A stretch of DNA of 64,000 nucleotides from Inonotus obliquus (Eukaryota; Basidiomycota; Agaricomycetes; Hymenochaetales; Hymenochaetaceae): positions 930,001 to 994,000 of the forward strand of contig JAJHTX010000008.1 of the NCBI GenBank assembly GCA_032164295.1. The letters run 5' to 3'. Position 1 is the first letter of the stretch; each line of letters opens with the position of its first letter. A model generated the notes under the pieces. That model saw only the letters and a list, made by a program, of their open reading frames with translations. It was not told where the DNA came from and did no database searches. Positions 40,154 through 54,420 of this stretch are shown here, in pieces. Made by a program: the position numbers and the translations under genes.

Positions 40154-40698
40154 GGTTCACGAACGAGAAAATACGAAAACACGAAACAAAATCGAAAAAA
40201 TTCGGGTAGAGGATGGTCCAGGAATTGTCGTGGTGATGTGCAGCGTACAGAGAGTACATTGGTGCGTTGCGTATTGTCCGTTCGGACCGTGGCGGGCTAA
40301 AGGCTATAAAAAAGTTTAAAAAATCAAAACGAAAAAAAAGGGATTGGGCTCTGGTCTTGACTCATACTTGTACTACTGATCTCTTCTCTTAGGCACCAAG
40401 CATTCACTAACATTTGGATACCAGATGGACGACGCGAGGACCAAAAGATAAGTAGTCTGATGCTCCGATCCATTGATAAAGGTGGCTGACACTTCTCCTT
40501 CCTTTTACAAGTCCCGACGTTCCAACACCCTCTCAAACGCTCAAGCCTCCGACAATATGAAGATGGGTAACCTATTCTGTTTTATCAACCTGACTATGCT
40601 CTGTGTTTAGGTCCGCGATCTCTTCCGGTTGAATCATCAAGTTACATTGCGCAAGTTCTCCAGGTGAAACACTCCTGTCAGCCTCGAATCGTGAACGT

Positions 40699-40773
40699 GG
40701 ACGCTTGGGTTGACGCGGGGGAGGTCCGGTGACTGGCCACCACTGGGTCTTTCCTTCTGATGCCTGAGCGTCC
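40699..40773 (+). ncRNA. Hairpin unit 1
   Basis: Loop ACTGGCCAC at 40732-40740. Fifteen inner pairs are unbroken, counting G-T; a six-position internal loop (40712-40717 against 40755-40760) containing one G-C pair follows; then an outer stem of twelve pairs to 40699/40773 that includes GGACGCT against AGCGTCC. Hand count: 28 of 33 positions pair. Confidence 0.7.
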
Positions 40774-41104
40774 TTTCTAGTGGAAAGATGAGTAACATTA
40801 TATCCACAGATGTATCGCGATGGAGTTCGACTAACACAAGCTGTTCCAGAATAATTCACCTTTGGCCTTTCACACTTTTTCAAGATCACAACTTCAAGAA
40901 TCTCGACGAATCCCCACGAAGCAACAAAACGATACTACTCACACATACCTACCCCCTTCCGTGGTGAACACCTTTTCATCCTTTCTCATGTACCGCAACC
41001 CTTCCGCGTTGATTTCAGCTTTACAGACTCGAACAACGCCACCACTAGAAGATCAACCACCCTCTTTCAACGTCGGAACCCAGAAGGCTGGACTAGGAAG
41101 ACGG

Positions 41105-41175
41105 ACGTTCGGACTGACGCGGGAGGAATTCGGTGACTGGCCATCACCTGGTTTCTCTCGTTGAGGTTCGAGCGT
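41105..41175 (+). ncRNA. Hairpin unit 2
   Basis: Loop ACTGGCCAT at 41136-41144, a single-base variant. About 27 of 31 positions pair; the outer stem ACGTTCG against CGAGCGT is complete. A GGTGAGTAAT donor-like word follows at 41192-41201. Confidence 0.7.
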
Positions 41176-41496
41176 ACTGTCTGGGGAGAAAGGTGAGTAA
41201 TGTCCATCGTTACAGGATTAATATCATTATCTACCCTCTTTTCTCTCCACCTCAAGCCAACATCGACCTCAAGCCAGCATCGACCTCAAGAACCAGAGCT
41301 TACCGGACCAGGTACGAAGTGAGTATGTTGCTATTATCTCTCATCCTATCTGCGCTCCTTTCCTTCTATTTCTGGTTATATCTAGATCCACGAAGTTTTT
41401 ATCCACGACAACGACGACGACGACAGGATCCAACACCTCACCTACAGGGCGAAGCGATTACGAATACGACCGGTGGGTAGGAAGGAGGTAGGGCGG

Positions 41497-41568
41497 GCGC
41501 TCAAGTTCCGGTCCGGGACGCTCAGTGGCTGGCCACCACTGAGTTGTCTCTCGCCGGAGCCTGAGTGT
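41497..41568 (+). ncRNA. Hairpin unit 3
   Basis: Loop GCTGGCCAC at 41528-41536. The inner stem CTCAGTG against CACTGAG is fully Watson-Crick, differing from its neighbours on both sides of the stem (compensatory change). After an internal loop with a one-base offset, the outer pairs GCGCTCA against TGAGTGT hold. About 26 pairs by hand. Confidence 0.68.
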
Positions 41569-41898
41569 TGACGCCGGCAGGAAAGGTGAGTTAACTTGTG
41601 CACTCTAACACTAACTTCTCCCCTTCAGTCACCATTGAACTCCGATCTTCCCCCGATACTCAACATCCATCCGAACCAACGAACTCCCGCGAACCACCAC
41701 ACCATCAATGCTCCCAGTGTCCAACGATACAATGGTGAGCACACTCACAATCTTTTTCCGATGTATCCCCACTTCACTGCCTACCACTTTTCAGAATTTA
41801 TATCGCCACATGCAAACAAGACATCGAAAACAACCCTCAGCCCGCTTCCAGACTTTGCAAGATAACACCCCCGACGGTCAGCAAGACAGCCACTGTGA

Positions 41899-41951
41899 CC
41901 GTAGCGGGCAAGGCTCGGTGACTGGCCACCACTGGGCTTTTCCCGCTACGG
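41899..41951 (+). ncRNA. Hairpin unit 4
   Basis: Loop ACTGGCCAC at 41921-41929. GTAGCGGG pairs exactly with CCCGCTAC outside, and GGCTCGGTG with CACTGGGCT inside using G-T pairs; one mismatch in 22 positions. Confidence 0.72.
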
Positions 41952-42207
41952 CCTTTCCATAGGAAAGATAAGTAACGAATCGATTTGTATATCTATCAAC
42001 TCAAGTATACTAACCTTCCTTTTTACAGTTCTTCGCGTTGTACTTTATTCAGAAATGGACGGACGGAGAAGCATCTATCAGGTGAGTCAGTAGTCCTTTC
42101 TTTCCCGTTGCTCGCTTACTTTACAATCTATTTTGCATGTCAACTCTTCGCCAGGCAACTTCGACCTTAACGACCCGACACACTTACGAACTTTGGGGCG
42201 GGAGGAA

Positions 42208-42282
42208 AGGCGTTCCAACTGCGGTAGGGGGAATCCAGTGACTGGCCACCACTGGATTTCTCTTGCTGGAGCTTGGGCGTCT
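42208..42282 (+). ncRNA. Hairpin unit 5
   Basis: Loop ACTGGCCAC at 42241-42249. Inner stem ATCCAGTG against CACTGGAT is perfect; 30 of 33 positions pair by hand count, eight of them G-T. GATGAGTAAC follows at 42298-42307. Confidence 0.72.
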
Positions 42283-42663
42283 GGAAGTGAACAAATAGAT
42301 GAGTAACACTTTCTACATTCTTATTACTGAAGAACGTTTTGTAGTTCCTACAAGCAACCGATACCTATCACACCCTTCAAGAATCAGCCGCCCGCTCGCA
42401 CCAACGATACATCATGAGCCGACATCAAGACATAGTTTTCGCCTTCCCGCCGTTCATCGTCCGCCCCATTTCCGGTGTCTCGACTGATCACATAGGCGAG
42501 TAAGTTTACTTTTTGTTATTAACGTACCCTCGCTCCACTTTCAAGGACTCACGACACCCTACTCAGTAAACCGCAATCAATATCTCCAAGACGATCAACA
42601 CCCCGCCTACGACTCAGAAGTATCACGCCTCCACGGTCTCAACGGTCATCAAGACGGACGCTA

Positions 42664-42722
42664 GGACTACGGTGGGAGAGGTTCGGTGACTGGCCACCAC
42701 CTGGCTTCTTCCGCCGTGGTTC
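42664..42722 (+). ncRNA. Hairpin unit 6
   Basis: Loop ACTGGCCAC at 42689-42697. 24 of 25 positions pair, with the single C-T mismatch at the fifth pair, as in unit 2. GATGAGTAAC follows at 42736-42745. Confidence 0.72.
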
Positions 42723-43006
42723 CTCAGGTGGAAAAGATGAGTAACATATCTACTGAAATATCTGATACTACACGCAAATTAACCCTCCATCTCCCTCTGT
42801 AGTTCCCCAGCAACAATACACCATTCGCTCTTTACTCAATTCAACATTGGACGTCCGGAGAAGTATCCGCCAGGCGAGTATCACAACGTTTCTGTCCCAT
42901 TGCTCGCTTACTTCACTCCACCTATTAAATTTGCTTTTAGAAATCTTCAATAGTAACGACGCGACTCGACAAGCTTACTATTTCCGAGCAGAAGGGAGGG
43001 GGAAAG

Positions 43007-43075
43007 GCGTTCGGGCTGCAGTGGGAGGATTCAGTGACTGGCCACCACTGGGTTCTCTTGCTGGAGTTGTGGTAC
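43007..43075 (+). ncRNA. Hairpin unit 7
   Basis: Loop ACTGGCCAC at 43037-43045. The first 18 pairs are unbroken and at least seven of them are G-T; the outer part is looser. GATGAGT follows at 43085. Confidence 0.7.
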
Positions 43076-43352
43076 GGGGAAACAGATGAGTTCTTCTTTT
43101 AATCTTCGCATTACTGAAGTACATCCTTTTCTAGTCCAAACCTATCACCTCAGCCGCCCGCCTGCATCGACGACATACCATAAGCCAACATCGACACACC
43201 ACTCGCACCTCCCTCCTTCGCATCCGTCCCGACTGATGATTCAGGTGAGTACATTTCTTGTTCGTCGGCAACGCGTCCCCGCTCCACTACCTACTACTTT
43301 CCCAATCTATTCTATCCTATGTAGCTAGCCGCAATACAACAGTCAGCAAGGC

Positions 43353-43427
43353 AGGCGTTCGGATTCTGGTAGGAGGAGCTCAGTGACTGGCCACCACTGG
43401 GTTTCTTCTGCTAGATTCCCGACGTCT
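43353..43427 (+). ncRNA. Hairpin unit 8 (best pairing)
   Basis: Loop ACTGGCCAC at 43386-43394. 31 of 33 positions pair by hand count, eight of them G-T and none A-C. GATGAGT follows at 43441. Confidence 0.73.
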
Positions 43428-43671
43428 GGTTCAGTTAAAAGATGAGTCATCCTTCCTCTAGTAATGTGAGCTTACAAGTTTTCTTCCCCTGTATATGTAG
43501 TTCTCCATCACCCAAAACCCGTCATTCCCCTGCTTCCTCACCTCATCTCCGCCGTAATGTCTATCAGGTGCGTAAATGTCCACTCCACTTCCATCCCTTC
43601 CCATCTGCACTCATCCCCACCCTCCTCGGGGTTATTTGTTAGTTATCTACTCAGGTACTTACTGGCGACGA

Positions 43672-43790
43672 CTGCGACGACGAGGACGACGAGGACGACG
43701 AGGACGACGAGGACGACGAGGACGACGAGGAGAACACACGAACATCCGCCATTCCGCCATTCCGCCATTCCGCCATTCCGCCCTTCTGCC
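43672..43790 (+). repeat. GACGACGAG and CCATTCCG simple repeats
   Basis: About eight GACGACGAG-type units run to 43729, followed by four ATTCCGCC units at 43752-43783. They expand the spacer between hairpins 8 and 9, which is the longest of the array (528 bp). Confidence 0.85.
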
Positions 43791-43898
43791 ATCACTCCAC
43801 TACGGCGCTACACTTCCGATATCACGTCAAGGACTCAGACTCGGTTCTGAGTGGGAAAGGTTAGTCGTTAGACTTGGACTTCCAGTTTGGAGAAATTT

Positions 43899-43937
43899 CG
43901 GTGACTGGCCACCATCGAAATTCATCCTTCTGAGTTG
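43899..43937 (+). ncRNA. Hairpin unit 9 (terminal, divergent)
   Basis: Loop ACTGGCCAC at 43914-43922. Inner stem ATTTCGGTG against CATCGAAAT has a sequence unlike the other units yet pairs completely (one G-T). Outer pairing is weak. No GATGAGT word follows, so this unit may close the array. Confidence 0.65.
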
Positions 43938-44619
43938 GAGTTGTTTGACGTCGGGTGGAGTCTTGATATTTTCGATTGCAGATAAAAAGCGACTTTTCAC
44001 CTCCTCAAGATACCGACACTCGAAAACTCCAACGCCCTCAATCGGGACAGAGACGAACTGTCAAGACGAACCAACAACGATTCTCAAAACTCCCGCCGCA
44101 CCGCTCCCGATCCGACATTCGAACCCGATTTATCGTCCAAGATTTCAGCATCGATCCCAACCTATCCAATTCCCAATTTCCGATTTCCGATTTCCGATGT
44201 TCCACCCGACCTGAAGCCTCACCTTCACCTTCACCTTCTCCTCATTTTTCCGTTCTAGCATTCTCATTTTTATGTTCTTCCGCCAATTTTATTTGTTGTC
44301 TGTCTTGAATGTATGTCTTGTACTTTTTCTGTTGCATGATTGTATATGTTGCGCTGGTTGTAGAGTACTTGTATAGCGTGTTCCATATGAATTTATTCGC
44401 TTTTTATTCTGAAGCTGCTCATCAAGCGTGAGCGACAGTGACTCGATGCTTACATTTATTCTACCAGGTAAAAGTAGTGCTATCATCCCCACTTGTTTAC
44501 TTTACAATAATAGTACAGTTACGCGTACAGTACATAACATAACACACAATCCTATCTCATCCGTCACCCTTCGGTATGTTCGACCGTGTCCTCATCCTTC
44601 AAATGAAAAAGGTATTCAG

Positions 44620-47600
44620 TCAAAATATACTTAGACACACACGGTATAGGATACTAACCGCATATACGCGAACCATTGAAAATTTTCCTGCGAACACCTT
44701 CCCTATTATATTGTTATGATTCGGGCACTCGAACCTCTCAAGGTTTTTCGATAACACGAAAACGAAGCGCCAATTCTCCTCCCCTGGGATTCCCTTCATT
44801 ACCTTAAGATTCTTCAGAAAATCCTCGAGCAATGCTTTGCTACCCTGTGTATAACCTCCAGTCATTTGCAGAAGGTAGAGATAGTTGCCGTGCATGAAGA
44901 ACGCATCGATACCAACTTGCTGGCTCTCGCGTTGATAGTAGGTGTTTGGTTCAACCTGAATGTCACCGGCATCGGTGCCATATGTCTTGCAGCTGTGAGG
45001 ACAAAAATCGATTCCAAACGTCTGAAGAACCGAACGAGCGTCGAGACTTTTCTTCAGATGAGGTGAAGACTCATCTGTTGCCATTTTTGCGTGATATGTG
45101 TATGTGCCGCCGGTAGATTCGACCATCTCCAAACCCTCAATCGTAATCCGACGTCGGAAGTTATTGTGAACAAAAGCCTCGAAGATCGAGCCAGTCATTC
45201 CACGAGCATCCTCATACACCGATAAAAGATCCCAATCATCCCATACTCGCAAAACCTCATCATCGTCATCGTCCAGCTGCCCGAGTCTAGCCGCAATACG
45301 ACTTGCAATATCCTTCGACTTGATCGACATCACATGCGCATCCGATACAGTGTTAACGTCCGGTCGTCGGATTAGGCAAATCATGTCTGATAGCGACTGA
45401 TATTCCATGCTTAATACCCTACACTGCGTGATGATGCTCCGCAACGTATCCGCCATACTTTCGATCCCGTTTATTGCGAGTTGACGATAGGAATCATAAG
45501 TCTCTACGTCCTTGTCCTTGTCCTCGAGACATATGCGCGCAATAGGTCCGTACTTCTCGAACCTCAAAGATGCCGCGGCGGCTTTATCGGGGGAGAGAAG
45601 CTTATGTGATCTATCCATCACTAATAGGGTTCCGCAGCGTAGCGTAAAGTACGGAAATGGGCCGTACGTATACGGAACGCTCTGTACTCGTATGAAGGAA
45701 TAGGACTTACTTTACGGATCTGTATTGCACGGTCCGTGTTCCGCATCAAGAAATCCAAATTTGGGCGTAAACGACCGCATACGGCCCATACGGCATACGG
45801 TCATGTGATAGTGATCAACTGCGCGATCTGCTCTGTCCATGACATGCCCCAGCTCCTTGTTCTCTCCCGCATGCTGCTATCTTCTCGTTGGCGTGTCCGC
45901 AAGGCTAGGGTCACTGTGAATGCTCTCAAAAGGTAAGTAGTAGCTTTTTTATTGAACAGAATGGACATTGTTTTACTGATATTATTCCACATTGAAGATC
46001 ATGTATCCATCACGTCGTGTTCGCAACATTATCTCTCTGGTCATCCTGATCGCACGTTGCAGACCCGGTGTTTGGTAGTAAGAGGTGTTGGAATATGTGG
46101 CTGGAAGGTGCGTAGTTACATCACACAGTCCACATGAAGTGGATGCTCATGGCATATTGCGTTGCAGAACATGAGTCTTGGAGAGACACAATGCACGTCG
46201 CATTGCAGAACATGAGCCACAGTCGAAAAGCGATGCACTTCGACACTATCTTAAGGAACTACCACCCGACTCACCTTCCTTTCTTCGAAAGGTCTTACTC
46301 CTGCACAACGCAAACTCTCAGACTACTTCACTCTTTTCAATACCTTGCCATTCTTTATGTGGGCTGCCCGTGAGTCTAATTGACCCTTCTGCTCGCTCTA
46401 ATTGATACTTATCTTAATAATTAGTCACTGAAGACTCAAGGTCATCACTTGAACATCGCTTTGCAGCTCGGTCTCCTTCAAGTACTTCAGCAAAGGACCA
46501 GAGCCATCGAAACATTGTAATCGCTAAGGGTGCAAATATGGATACTGTCCAAAACGATGATGCTCTATCCCCGTCCAAGAGCATGATATTTGCTTTCATG
46601 GCAGGTTATGGCAGTGAGGAGGATACTATTCCATTAGACGAACTCGACACTTACTTCAGTGTGAAACGCGAAAAGTCTTGGGATGCTGGAGAAACAATTC
46701 CATGGTGGTCCGCACGCCGTGCTCAGTTTCTGCACTTGTCAAAGTTTGCGTGTGAGATCCGTGCCATTCCAGGTGAGTCGAAAACTTTCTTCTTGACATA
46801 ATAATATGTGGAATATATAATTGATGATCTTTGCAGGCTCCTCAGTCGCCGTCGAACATGTATTCTCGGGAGGCAGAGATACTATTGCACTCCGTCGTGC
46901 CCGTCTGGGGTCAGAGACCATCACAACCCTTATGCTGGTGAAACAATGGCTACGTTCGAAAGACAGATCACACACTCCTTAAATTATCTCTCTTATTTCT
47001 TGTTATTATAGTGTGTACTTCCTTCTTGGTGTCGTATATACGGCGTATTGCCGTATACTCCCGGTGCGTTTCCGTAGCTCACCCCAAAATAAAAAATACG
47101 GAGCGTAAAGCACGGATCGTAATCCGTACTGTGTCTTGTCTTTACGCGCGTATCTGTATACGTACGCTGCGGAACCCTAATCACTAATGAGAGCACGATA
47201 CCAAAGTTCCAATTCCCATTCAGTACTTACGCAAGATCCATTTCTTCCCGTGTCCAAGGGTTCATTACTGCGACGTAGCGACTTTTCGTCTTGTCGAGGG
47301 TTTTCCACACTTTGAAGTCCGGAGGGCTAACATAGACCAGGTTGACTCCCCTAAGATGGTTGCCACTGATGTGATAGGGAATACGGTCTGAAGCCTCAGA
47401 CGAGTCAATTAAGCACCAAGGTGGTTCTGGGTAGTCGTTTGTAAGAAAAAAGGGACTTTCTGTAGGCACCATTTCTACACCCGATTTGGTGAAGAGGTAG
47501 TAGCAACCACCCATTAGCAGCATCGTCGGGCGTCCCTCCCCGAGGCGCCGTCGTAAGACGTACGAAATCCAAACAGTTTTTCCTGATGAGAACATAGTTG

Positions 47601-48628: not shown

Positions 48629-50794
48629 TTACAAAGTATTATAACCATAATCATAACCATTTGCCGTACCGTTCGTACCATTCACAGTCGCAAGTCCAAG
48701 TCCAAGTCCCTCAAGCACCCATCCCACCAATACCGAAGACTTTGACTTCAAACTCTCCAAACTCTCCAAATCCTCCAACTCCACCTTCGAATTCAACCCT
48801 AATCCTAAATGCCAGTGACACACCTTCACGAGCCGTCTAGCCTGCTCATACGTAAGACGCCCAGCTCTCTCTATAACCTTTTGTCCGATGTATTCGGACT
48901 TGAATCCTGGGATGAAGTAGTCTGGGTCCATTGGGTGCGTGTGCACATTCGAGGTACCATCCGCTGCGTCCGCGCCTGAGTCTTCCGAGTCTTCCGAGTT
49001 GGAATTGGAATTGGAGTCACCAGGCTGAACGTTCAACACTACCAATTCATGCACAGCCGGCATCTCAAACGCAGATACCGAAATACGTTCCAACGACTTT
49101 ACAAGTTCCTCTTTCTTCGTCTCATTCACATTACCATATGCGTATGCGTACGAAAGCTTATCCAACGCATCGTTGATAAGAGATTCGTATTGTTTAGGGT
49201 TGAGGAGTATGTTGTAGATGTCGCGCGGGACGTTACCGTATTGGGTGATGGTGGAGTTGAGTAGTTTTTGTATGGCAATTTCAATTTCAACTTCCGTATC
49301 CGCGTTCTCGTTCTCGTTCTCGTTTTCGAAGATGCATTGGGATTGGTCCTGCTCCCGCATGAGGACCCGAATTTTCTCGATAACGTCTATGTGAGAGAGA
49401 GTAGGATCCGGACTCCGTATTATCTCAAGGATTCTATCGTATCTGTGATCAAGCTTAAACCTAGAAGAAAGGTAAAAACAAGCTCAGACTAATCGGGAGG
49501 ACGACTACGACTACGAAGAAGAATAAGAATAAAGACACTCACCCTTTTATTATATCATCCCTACTCCACAACGGCATACCCAAAATAATACCATATCGAC
49601 GTTTGAACCACGCATTGTATCGCATATAATCAGGGTCGGGCGAAGACGCTTGAATGGGGAAGATCCTCATGTCGTCCGATGTAAGGAATACCGGTGGAGG
49701 CTTACAAGTACCAATTACGTCGTTGTCAATCAGACACCATATAGGGTCTTTGGAAGTGGCTGTCGAAGGAAACCCAATGCCCACAGGAGCGTTTCGGGAT
49801 ATAACGTAGACGTGATCACGATAAAAGAGATGTGTCTCTTCACGCGTGTATAGAATGACGTTTTTCTTCAATGTGAGGAGATAGATGAGCATGAACCATA
49901 GCCAGGTGGTTTTACCTAGTTGGAGTGACGAGTTCGACATAGTAAGCAACGAACGTCGAATATGACACATAAGAAGATACGAACCAGTTCCAGGTTGTCC
50001 CGTTAGAAGGATACTCTGAGTCAACCTAATTCGTTGTAGTCGAATAATTCGATCACTGAGGCGATGATAATAGTCCAAAACGAGTATTCGACCTTTACTT
50101 TGACCAAGTTCCTTTAGACGATATTCCGCCTCGTATTCTCCACGGTCGTCAAACGCGAGTGGTAAGACTTTTTGGTGTTTAGGGAAATCTCTGCCTCGCC
50201 AGTAGTTGAGGAAATCACTCCAATTGCATCTCGTCTCTAGTTCCCAACCATCAATCGAGAAGTTCCAGACGTACTCGTCTACCTCCCCAAGGGCAAAAGA
50301 CAAAAGACAAAAGAATCAAAGCAGTTCAGGTAACAAGTAACGAGTCACTCACCACGCCTCTTTACTTCAATTACCAAATGGATCCGATCCCTACTCAACT
50401 CAACATCCGTTCTGAAAGTGCTCTGAATCGAAGCTTGACCCGTACAATCAAGCTTTTCCCGATTTGCACACTTGACGCGTTCGAACAGACGTTCTTCTGT
50501 CTCTTCTCCATCTAATATCAGGGTATCCGGCTTCTCCGTGTGTGGTTAGTATACCATTAGTTAGGAATAGTAGTGACAGACCTTTTGCAATTCAAGCTGC
50601 GTCTCATGAATACTGGATCCAAAGACACTCCTGTGAATCTGGTTGCGAATCGAAGAGAGAGAAGTAAAAACTGGACGTATAAGACCAAAGTGTTGGAGGC
50701 TTTGGTCGAGGATATGATCATTATAAAGAATGAAGTAATTTATCACTAAACACATGGTGGCTGGTAGAGAAGAGATTGTTTCAGAGCATAGCAC
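48629..50794 (-). pseudogene. Crinkler-like protein lacking the REase domain (CRN2)
   Basis: Pieces in order: about 50794-50582, 50533-50353 (ends LVIEVKRR), 50282-49985 (VDEYVWNFSIDGW to TGQPGTG), 49915-49543 (KTTWLWFMLIYLL, WCLID, MPLWSRDD) and 49460-48629. The Walker A GQPGTGKT spans the intron 49916-49984. The last exon carries YGNVPRDIYNILLNPKQYES and YEQARRLVKVCHWH, then stops where CRN3 continues into its nuclease-like domain. An Asn/Glu repeat (ENENENEN) and a Ser/Asn-rich tract are inserted. The intron between 50353 and 50282 does not keep the frame with the available acceptor. Missing C-domain plus doubtful frame suggest a decaying copy, though a truncated product is possible. Confidence 0.6.
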
Positions 50795-52204: not shown

Positions 52205-54420
52205 TCAGCAGTTTTCACATACCGAGTCATCAATGAACTGGCAGAAAACGTCTCCATCAACATCCCTTCGTCCAGTTTTAGACATATCCCAAAAGTGACT
52301 TGAAGCATTTCTCGACGCAGGACAAACGAGGACGTAGCACACTTTCACCGCCAATGGTTTGCGATGGATCGTTCGGGCGGTAGCTCGTGCGGTAGTTCGT
52401 TTAGCAGTTCGTCGTTTTCTCTTCCTCGACGGCCCCGGTTCTTCTACTTCGCTTGCACTATCATCTATTCCGACCACTTTCTTGACATTACTGTGTTCCG
52501 CGAAGGCTTTCGCTCTCGACTTGGCAACTTCGACAATCGACCGAATCATCGGATATCCAGTTGCGGAACCACTATGCCTCTCGGAAATGGTCGTCTGGAA
52601 AATCCAGACAACTGGCTGCACGGTATTTTTCTGGCCATTTTCTCTGAGTTCCACGAAAAAAGAGTCGAACAAAGGATTGTTGATCTTATTTGGCACACAG
52701 AAGCACTGCTCAAGCGGAGTAGCAAAACCTGCCGCTGGTGGCCACCTAAATGTCGTGCCAGAAAAATCGACCCTGGTATATACCCTCGCACTGATGGCAT
52801 CGGCCAGGCAGGAATTTCCAGTGAAGGTTCCTGTTAGCGTCGCAAAGTGGAGTTCCCTGTTCTCTGGCTGCGATTCCGACATGTCCATAGGGATGAGAAG
52901 ACCAGAAAGACAGATGTCTGTTGCCAGGCCGCACAAGGCACCATGGGCGAGTCCCTCAAAGATCCACCCCACCAGCGCAGAAGACTTAGGATGCCATTGA
53001 TATACTTTAAATAAACGTTTGGCTTGTTCATACGTAAGGTGCCCAAGTTTCTCTACCATTTTACAGCCGAGGTACTCAGACCTAAATCCTGGCACGAAAC
53101 GATCGGGGTCCATTGGGTTCTCACCGGGTTCGACGCTTAACAGTACGAGCTTGTGCATAGGTGGTGTGTCAGGCGTGATCGTACGGGATGAGGAAATATG
53201 CTCCAGAGACACCACAAGCTCCTCATAAGAAAGCTTATCCAGTGCGCCTTGGATTAGTGACTCGTGCATCTTGAGGTTAATGACCGCTTTATAAACATCG
53301 CGGGGCACGTTTCCGTACCGTTCGATAGCGTCGTGGATCATTCTACGTAAAGCAACTTTCGTATCCTTGATAGATTGTTCCCGCATGAGAACCTGGATCT
53401 GCTCGATAACGCGAGGAGCGTCAGGATCTGTAGTCTGTGGATTACTAAGGAGCGTATCGTATTGTTTATGGAGCTCAAAACTAGATGAGAGTAAGTCTAT
53501 GGCAACGGCTAATTGGGAGGACGAAGACTTCACCCCTTTACAATGTCATCACTAGTCCACAACGGCATACCCAAAATAATACCCATTCGCTGCTTGAACC
53601 ACGCCTTGTATCGTTCAGGGCTAGGCGAAGAGGCTTGGATGGGGAAGATTACCAAGTCGTCCTTCGTTGTAAGGTATGCCGGTATAGGTTTGCTAGGATC
53701 GTCGCTATCAATCAGGATCCATATAGGCTCATTGGAAGTGGCGGTCGGACTCGGATACACGATGCGACCGACTTGAGGAACAACAGCGTAAACATGGTCA
53801 CGATAAAAGAGATGTGTTTCATCACGAGTGTATAGAGCGACATCCTTCTTCCGCGTGAGGAGATAAATGAGCATGAACCACAACCAGGTAGTTTTACCTA
53901 GATGGACATAAGCAACGAGTGACACGCAGGAAGGAGATACGAACCAGTTCCAGGTTGCCCCGTAAGGAGGATACTCTCTGTTAATGCATCCTTCTGAACT
54001 TTGATAATTCGGGCACTGAGGCGATGATAATAGTCTAAGACGAGGATTCGACCTAGACTCTGGCCAAGCTCTTTAAGACGATACTCCAAATTCTTATTGC
54101 CATCGTCGTGAAAAGCGAGTGGCAAAACTTTTTGGCTTTCAGATAATTCCTTCCCCCGCCAGTATTCGAGGAAATCACTCTAATTGCCTTTCGTCTCTAG
54201 TTTCCAACCATCCTGGGCAAAGTTCCAGCCGTACTCGTCCACATCCACTGAGGCATAACGATCTATTAGCTTAGTTCAAGCAATATCGAACGAGCTGCTC
54301 ACCCTGCCCCTTTACTTCGACTACCAAATGGATCAAATTTTTGCTCACTATAACCGTTCTTGCGAACCTCAGAGAGAGGGGTTCCACTCTCTGCTTGTAT
54401 AACACCAAGTTATTAAAAGC
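52205..54420 (-). pseudogene. Crinkler-like protein with nuclease-like domain and NLS, nonsense-mutated (CRN3)
   Basis: Exons from 5': about 54420-54303 (ends HLVVEVKG), 54247-53945 (to TGQPGTG), 53897-53534 (KTTWLWFMLIYLL...IVK) and 53480-52205. It is the closest relative of CRN2. In the second exon a TAG at 54180-54182 stands where CRN2 has TGG (NWSDFL), so the frame is cut early. The last exon is intact: YGNVPRDVYKAVINLKMHES, TYEQAKRLFKVYQWHP, a PD-(D/E)xK-like PLFDSFFVELRENG...WIFQTT, then a strongly basic SRKRKRRTAKR segment that should act as a nuclear signal. 5' exons present in CRN2 are missing beyond about 54420, where a dispersed repeat begins. A long ORF from 53533 exists only because intron 53481-53533 is open. 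Confidence 0.68.

Follow-up and report, generated by a model that had tools for sequence, protein, structure and literature searches.

A tandem array of nine hairpins, each carrying the 9-nt loop ACTGGCCAC or a one-base variant of it, was found on the + strand of a 64,000-nt stretch of the Inonotus obliquus genome (contig JAJHTX010000008.1, positions 930,001 to 994,000; hereafter the window, numbered from its first letter), with loops between 40732 and 43912. The locus looks like an undescribed multi-hairpin RNA, and its structured-RNA core is well supported by the sequence. More tentatively, we favor a multi-exon non-coding RNA (ncRNA) that would present the hairpins to a loop-reading partner, and in which 5′ splice sites with A at the first intron position (+1A) would release or withhold the hairpin exons. 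Conserved structure is seldom detectable in long ncRNAs, according to the excerpted text of PMC4947167; here, nine copies in one genome reveal it without outside homologues.

The units were mapped with the sequence GTGACTGGCCAC, which, on the + strand with at most one mismatch, starts at 40729, 41133, 41525, 41918, 42238, 42686, 43034, 43383, and 43901; at up to two mismatches, no further match was found elsewhere in the window on either strand. Successive units are 404, 392, 393, 320, 448, 348, 349, and 518 bp apart. A first-pass annotation, made from the sequence alone, had reported nine spaced inverted repeats; the nine units stood, with the spacing corrected from 320–528 to 320–518 bp. As it had also described, two loops depart from ACTGGCCAC by one base: unit 2 has T for the final C, and unit 3 has G for the initial A. 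The other seven are exact. In the exact loop, A at position 1 lies opposite C at position 9; both variants replace this A.C with a Watson-Crick pair (A-U in unit 2, G-C in unit 3), with RNAfold closing a 7-nt loop in these two units; thus, to judge from the two variants, the recognized loop is probably CUGGCCA, closed by A.C, A-U, or G-C. CUGGCCA is identical in all nine units, and in the GUG/CAC neck below the loop the two loop-adjacent pairs never vary. Between units 8 and 9, the widest spacing, are short tandem repeats of GACGACGAG (six copies, 43676–43731) and TCCGCCAT (six copies, 43745–43792).

Alignment of the nine units yielded a consensus helix of 24 pairs, 12 of which changed on both sides (20 cells altogether), and 89.6% of the 211 alignment cells were paired. 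The structure was drawn from the consensus of this alignment, which had itself not been adjusted to it. None of 500 shuffles matched the paired-cell or both-side-change values, two of 500 did so for further pair types, and controls in which the partners were slid never exceeded 6 pairs and 56.9%; the co-varying stems proposed at first pass were supported. Mispairs over the nine units, scored strand-neutrally, comprised 68 G-T and 4 A-C. The G-T bias of the first-pass annotation was upheld, although its null of equal likelihood was too lenient, as arm composition by itself predicts 74% G-T; an excess remains (p = 7e-6, a value computed over duplicated units that are not independent). Its per-unit G-T counts, made by hand, differed slightly from those obtained here: 7 in unit 5, 10 in unit 7, and 10 in unit 8. 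Together, the covariation and the preponderance of G-U over A-C mispairs argue that stem pairing appears to be maintained at the RNA level, on the + strand.

With hand-set boundaries, all nine units fold, at -25.4 to -54.4 kcal/mol and z-scores of -2.25 to -7.11. In fixed windows, the + strand z-score was weakest for unit 9 (-1.0) and strongest for unit 8 (-5.7), and the minus strand folded worse than the + strand in every unit, with units 3 and 4 still reaching -2.7 and -2.6 on the minus strand. A strand-neutral arm score ranged from 14 to 23.5 across the units. Outside the array, scored at every fourth base, 42 of 15,051 positions reached at least 14 and the maximum was 17.5, a value exceeded by five of the nine units; 3000 random positions, with the array included in the sampling, gave a maximum of 19.5. 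Units 7 and 9, with an arm score of 14, would be unremarkable taken singly.

The array DNA matched only itself in the 36-Mb, 30-contig genome, which carries 68 DUF6533 matches, consistent with an agaricomycete. The sequence GTGACTGGCCACCA, at one mismatch, had 19 matches genome-wide, nine of them in the array; the reversed pattern gave 9, so the 10 matches outside the array lie at background, and the covariance model R1 applied to all 10 of these loci gave a best E-value of 0.079, over 19 loop bases. On the window, R1 found the nine units plus four minus-strand matches inside the array (E 6e-4 to 0.74), which hairpins would be expected to give. Homologues of the array were absent from the viral contigs and prokaryote genome contigs searched, and literature on fungal tandem hairpin ncRNAs, spliceosomal cleavage, and basidiomycete clusters of microRNA-like RNAs (milRNAs) held nothing comparable among the matches listed. 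At gathering score, Rfam gave no match on the window, and its strongest match below threshold scored 25.3 bits where 58 were needed; this agrees with the first-pass statement that no described family resembles the array. The structured ncRNA locus proposed there is thus consistent with the covariation, the G-U bias, the lack of a frame common to all units (below), the Rfam result, and the finding of no second copy.

What the first-pass annotation missed are 5′ splice-site words after the first eight hairpins, mostly with A at +1. The word AG/RTRAGT (slash before position +1) lies 6–17 nt past the stem in all eight inter-hairpin units (units 1–8) and does not follow unit 9. Between 40335 and 44320 the + strand has 11 copies of it and the minus strand none, and AG[CT]TRAGT, with C or T at +1, has no + strand occurrence; the remaining three of the 11 are upstream at 40448 (ATAAGT) and, in the second half of units, at 42082 and 43245. 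Position +1 is A in six of the eight hairpin sites (five ATGAGT, one ATAAGT). The post-hairpin sites have an identity of 0.92 at -2 to +6 and 0.31 at +10 to +49 in the ungapped comparison, gapped spacer identities being at shuffle level and uninformative; the sites are thus conserved against saturated surroundings. Additionally, GGCCACCA followed by AGATRAGT has six matches in the 36-Mb genome, all in the array, and its reversed-pattern control has none.

Two other readings of these words were rejected. AT-AG introns as a genome-wide feature were sought with the strict pattern AGxTGAGT..CTAAC..TAG, which gave 19 (G), 6 (A), and 5 (C, four distinct places) matches against reversed-pattern controls of 10, 28, and 17, placing the A version at background and no higher in frequency than the C version; the pattern is a weak instrument, its G count being only about twice the control. 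The introns of the array do not fit that exact pattern, and all six A-version matches lie elsewhere. A box C small nucleolar RNA reading of AGATGAG was set aside: GATAAG and GGTGAG, two variants of the word, suit a 5′ splice site and not the box C consensus, and no Rfam match reached the gathering score.

The exon-intron model built on these sites (Table 1) is a reading that beyond the 5′ sites is putative, with intron ends hand-picked to finish in AG and further 5′ sites chosen by G-only words or by eye. It comprises 18 intron-like stretches of 43–87 nt and 19 exons, in which hairpin exons of 117–200 nt alternate with short exons of 53–151 nt; the last exon (unit 9) is 666 nt, with an assumed end. 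Both ends of the B-type stretches are partly hand-picked; a word open to A or G at +1 located just three of these stretches, those at 41319, 42082, and 43245. The stretch before E1 folds without an array-type hairpin. Across 42082–43250, units 4-5 and 6-7 resemble a duplicated dimer, with common stretches 766–797 bp apart and short-exon ends alike. The best sub-threshold Rfam match, the Epstein-Barr virus stable intronic RNA (42500–42566), overlays predicted intron B5 nearly exactly, probably by chance.

Table 1. Hairpins and putative transcript features of the array (minimum free energy, MFE, in kcal/mol; hairpin boundaries set by hand unless noted).
Feature	Position	Strand	Remarks
Hairpin unit 1	40699–40773	+	loop 40732–40740; MFE -41.1, z -4.11
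Hairpin unit 2	41100–41181	+	loop ACTGGCCAT 41136–41144, A-U closes 7-nt loop; MFE -46.6, z -5.58
Hairpin unit 3	41492–41575	+	loop GCTGGCCAC 41528–41536, G-C closes 7-nt loop; MFE -54.4, z -5.69
Hairpin unit 4	41899–41951	+	loop 41921–41929; MFE -37.1, z -6.44; also an inverted repeat
Hairpin unit 5	42208–42282	+	loop 42241–42249; MFE -44.9, z -5.38
Hairpin unit 6	42659–42730	+	loop 42689–42697; MFE -42.7, z -3.89
Hairpin unit 7	43014–43068 (centroid extent)	+	loop 43037–43045; MFE -30.7, z -2.73
Hairpin unit 8	43352–43428	+	loop 43386–43394; MFE -49.5, z -7.11
Hairpin unit 9 (last, weakest)	43871–43942	+	loop 43904–43912; MFE -25.4, z -2.25; no RTRAGT site after it
TATA-box-like TATAAAA, candidate RNA polymerase II promoter of array	40305–40311	+	sequence match only
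Intron-like E1, upstream of array	40448–40511	+	5′ site AAAAG/ATAAGT; end hand-chosen
Intron-like A1	40788–40849	+	5′ site GAAAG/ATGAGT, CTAAC, CAG end; end hand-chosen
Intron-like A2	41193–41256	+	canonical 5′ site GAAAG/GTGAGT; end hand-chosen
Intron-like A3	41586–41628	+	canonical 5′ site GAAAG/GTGAGT; end hand-chosen
Intron-like A4	41968–42028	+	5′ site GAAAG/ATAAGT, CTAAC, CAG end; end hand-chosen
Intron-like A5	42299–42344	+	5′ site AATAG/ATGAGT, TAG end; end hand-chosen
Intron-like A6	42737–42802	+	5′ site AAAAG/ATGAGT, TAG end; end hand-chosen
Intron-like A7	43086–43134	+	5′ site AACAG/ATGAGT, TAG end; no YTNAY; end hand-chosen
Intron-like A8	43442–43500	+	5′ site AAAAG/ATGAGT, TAG end; end hand-chosen
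B-type intron-like stretches, eight (short exon to next hairpin exon)	40964–43654	+	all start with G (6 GT, 2 GC)
B-type 1–4	40964–41018, 41319–41385, 41735–41794, 42082–42154	+	
B-type 5–8	42496–42566, 42874–42940, 43245–43324, 43568–43654	+	

Each unit of the array has 0–3 stops per frame, and none of the frames stays open through all nine; a protein reading in the GDWPP frame was rejected on stops in six of the nine. The longest ATG frame of the fully spliced model (2868 nt) is 68 amino acids, below the mean of 95 in shuffles; with A and B introns removed it is again 68 (shuffle mean 91), and with B or E plus B introns removed it is 111 (shuffle means 91 and 95, respectively).

In the reading we favor, the array would be a tandem duplication of a two-exon unit, in which one exon is mostly a long hairpin and the other is short and unconserved, and selection at the RNA level, on the + strand, would hold the hairpins. 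A fixed loop on changing stems argues that some partner reads the loop; CUGGCCA, with its GUG/CAC neck, would be read in trans, most likely by a hairpin-binding protein, and nine hairpin copies would render the RNA multivalent. At the +1A sites of six of the first eight hairpin exons, the spliceosome would make the first cut and exon joining would be blocked, following the telomerase-RNA precedent, so that hairpin RNAs with an AG 3′ end might be released or hairpin exons left unjoined. The sequence itself shows the hairpins, their covariation and G-U bias, the lack of a frame common to the units, the 5′ splice-site words after the stems, and the six +1A; that the locus is transcribed, that it follows the exon-intron model past its 5′ sites, that the +1A sites are cleaved, and that a partner reads the loop is what we infer. 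Even without the other readings, nine repeats of a single loop in one RNA would offer a handle for identifying the protein or RNA that reads it.

The precedent comes from an A. niger intron (AUAAGU) placed in S. pombe TER1, which yielded mainly the cleaved form; an A1G change lowered that form more than 10-fold and made spliced RNA dominant, as given in the excerpted text of PMC4299874. The AU-type 5′ site of fungal telomerase RNA 3′-end processing occurs, as sequence, at six of the eight hairpin sites (ATGAGT/ATAAGT) and at E1, and as in Aspergillus-type telomerase RNA, where the 5′ site is AUA(A/C)GU, a +1A site comes soon after structured RNA. The array differs in having tandem hairpin units rather than one RNA, and AUGAGU in five of its six +1A hairpin sites. 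It also carries no Sm-like site within 60 nt upstream of any of the eight splice sites, and, with TTAGGG taken as the telomere repeat, none of the template sequences CTAACCCTA, TAACCCTAA, AACCCTAAC, CCCTAACCC, or CTAACCCT was found in 40201–44500, where one 7-mer, TAACCCT, lies at 42780; on both counts the array does not look like a telomerase RNA.

The missing Sm-like site is one of several points that weigh against the favored reading. Section 7 of PMC4299874 holds that +1A is insufficient alone and may merely inhibit splicing, and the hairpin sites of units 2 and 3 are canonical GT (two of eight). The contrast between B sites and hairpin sites in +1A (0/8 vs 6/8, Fisher 0.007) is overstated, five B sites having been chosen by G-only words or by eye; restricted to the three B sites found by the open word, +1A is 0/3 and Fisher p is 0.06. 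A branch-like YTNAY motif is present in seven of the eight A introns, which shuffled introns equal in 388 of 1000 trials, and it is therefore no evidence. Unit 1 is absent from global folds of the locus, spliced and unspliced, in which the other eight form. Because the units are duplicates, tests assuming independence and the covariation controls are generous. Finally, removal of only the two upstream (E) introns opens a 212-amino-acid ATG frame (43576–44214, + strand) that runs through unit 9 and exceeds the longest frame of every one of 200 shuffles (mean 102, maximum 206). This frame is partly repeat-derived, as it includes the GACGACGAG repeat, has no Pfam match, and drew nine candidate homologues for residues 85–175, none of them significant. 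The locus is apparently non-coding, with reserve over this frame.

An alternative, which we consider possible but on balance doubtful, is a polycistronic precursor from which the spliceosome would excise hairpin RNAs singly, each +1A site (AUGAGU/AUAAGU) serving as a one-step cleavage. Its products would be RNAs of a short exon plus a hairpin, about 197–321 nt for the five pairs ending at A4–A8, with AG 3′ ends. The spliceosome-mediated decay of BDF2 shows that first-step products may also be decay products (excerpted text of PMC3792478), and such decay is another possible outcome at the array. If the precursor reading is true, spliceosomal 3′-end cleavage would no longer be confined to telomerase RNA but would include a structured, multi-copy RNA of basidiomycetes.

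A small-RNA or RNase III substrate cluster, in which Dicer or another RNase III would cut the hairpins and the invariant loop would position the enzyme, is unlikely. Long imperfect stems containing G-U speak for it, as do seven RNase III matches and 21 Piwi-domain matches in the genome (18 over cut-off; several in one gene) and three miRNA-shaped Rfam matches, far under cut-off; a 5′ splice site shortly after the hairpin also helps some plant miRNAs. Fungal milRNA precursors and yeast Rnt1 substrates share with the array long hairpins in one presumed precursor. However, miRNA-like precursors have a conserved mature arm and a variable loop. The array shows the opposite pattern, an invariant loop core on diverging arms, and the small-RNA-precursor idea raised at first pass therefore fits poorly. 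Array DNA matches nowhere else in the genome, so no extended target is seen, and yeast Rnt1 reads an AGNN tetraloop, from which the array loop differs. Considered separately, these Piwi and RNase III counts suggest that the RNA-silencing set of this genome is expanded.

Among possible readers of the loop, the most concrete is Smaug/Vts1. A decoy, in which each CUGGCCA loop would be a Smaug recognition element and the RNA would titrate Vts1 as NORAD titrates Pumilio, has a low probability in our estimate. The Smaug consensus loop is CNGGN0-3, with CUGG the best variant (excerpted text of PMC4053848), and VTS1 favors hairpins with CNGG at the loop 5′ end (excerpts of PMC8118286 and PMC2895634). 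CUGG opens the 7-nt loop in all nine units, a Vts1 homologue is present among the proteins of the genome (E 9.3e-18 to PDB 2b6g), and NORAD, with 12 diverged tandem units of about 300 nt, provides a precedent (excerpted text of PMC4947167). Measured against the element as CNGG at the 5′ end of a 4–8-nt loop with a canonical closing pair, the array falls short: CUGG is present in nine of nine units, but the closing pair is canonical in only two; the other seven have A.C and fold with a 9-nt loop. The base 5′ of the loop is A in eight of nine units, whereas G is favored there, and the CCA half is invariant, although the SAM domain is reported to make no contact with the 3′ part of the loop (both from the excerpted text of PMC4053848). 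A loop beginning CNGG is expected by chance 1 in 64 times, and the array further differs from Smaug elements in its long stems.

Still less probable is a kissing-loop array, in which the palindrome UGGCCA would let hairpins of the same or of different transcripts pair by their loops, so that the RNA assembles. All nine units keep this self-complementary sequence unchanged, but the equally invariant preceding C falls outside it, no unit carries an alternative palindrome, and chance alone would give a palindrome of 6 nt in about 1 of 64 cases per register. Least probable of all is a decaying array, an older duplicated gene in which +1 G changed to A before duplication, leaving splice sites as dead relics and hairpins as left-over inverted repeats: it fits tandem duplicates with dimer-scale repeats 766–797 bp apart and spacer similarity at shuffle level, but not the covariation, the G-U excess, the invariant loop core, or AG/RTRAGT intact in eight of eight units beside saturated intron sequence.

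In architecture, the nearest analogue is NORAD, a Pumilio sponge. Like the array, it consists of strongly diverged tandem units, each a few hundred nt long, in which a short recognition element and a hairpin are kept (excerpted text of PMC4947167). The array is distinct from NORAD in being fungal, in keeping a hairpin loop rather than a Pumilio site, and in its intron-like spacers with unusual splice sites.

Downstream of the array, an open reading frame (ORF) on the minus strand (44620–45621) has five homologues only in a large protein set, at 32–34% identity and none with a Pfam domain. Farther on, two minus-strand ORFs (48629–49360 and 52205–53533), belonging to a family without a Pfam match, contain by eye YGNVPRD-like stretches and look like diverged paralogues.

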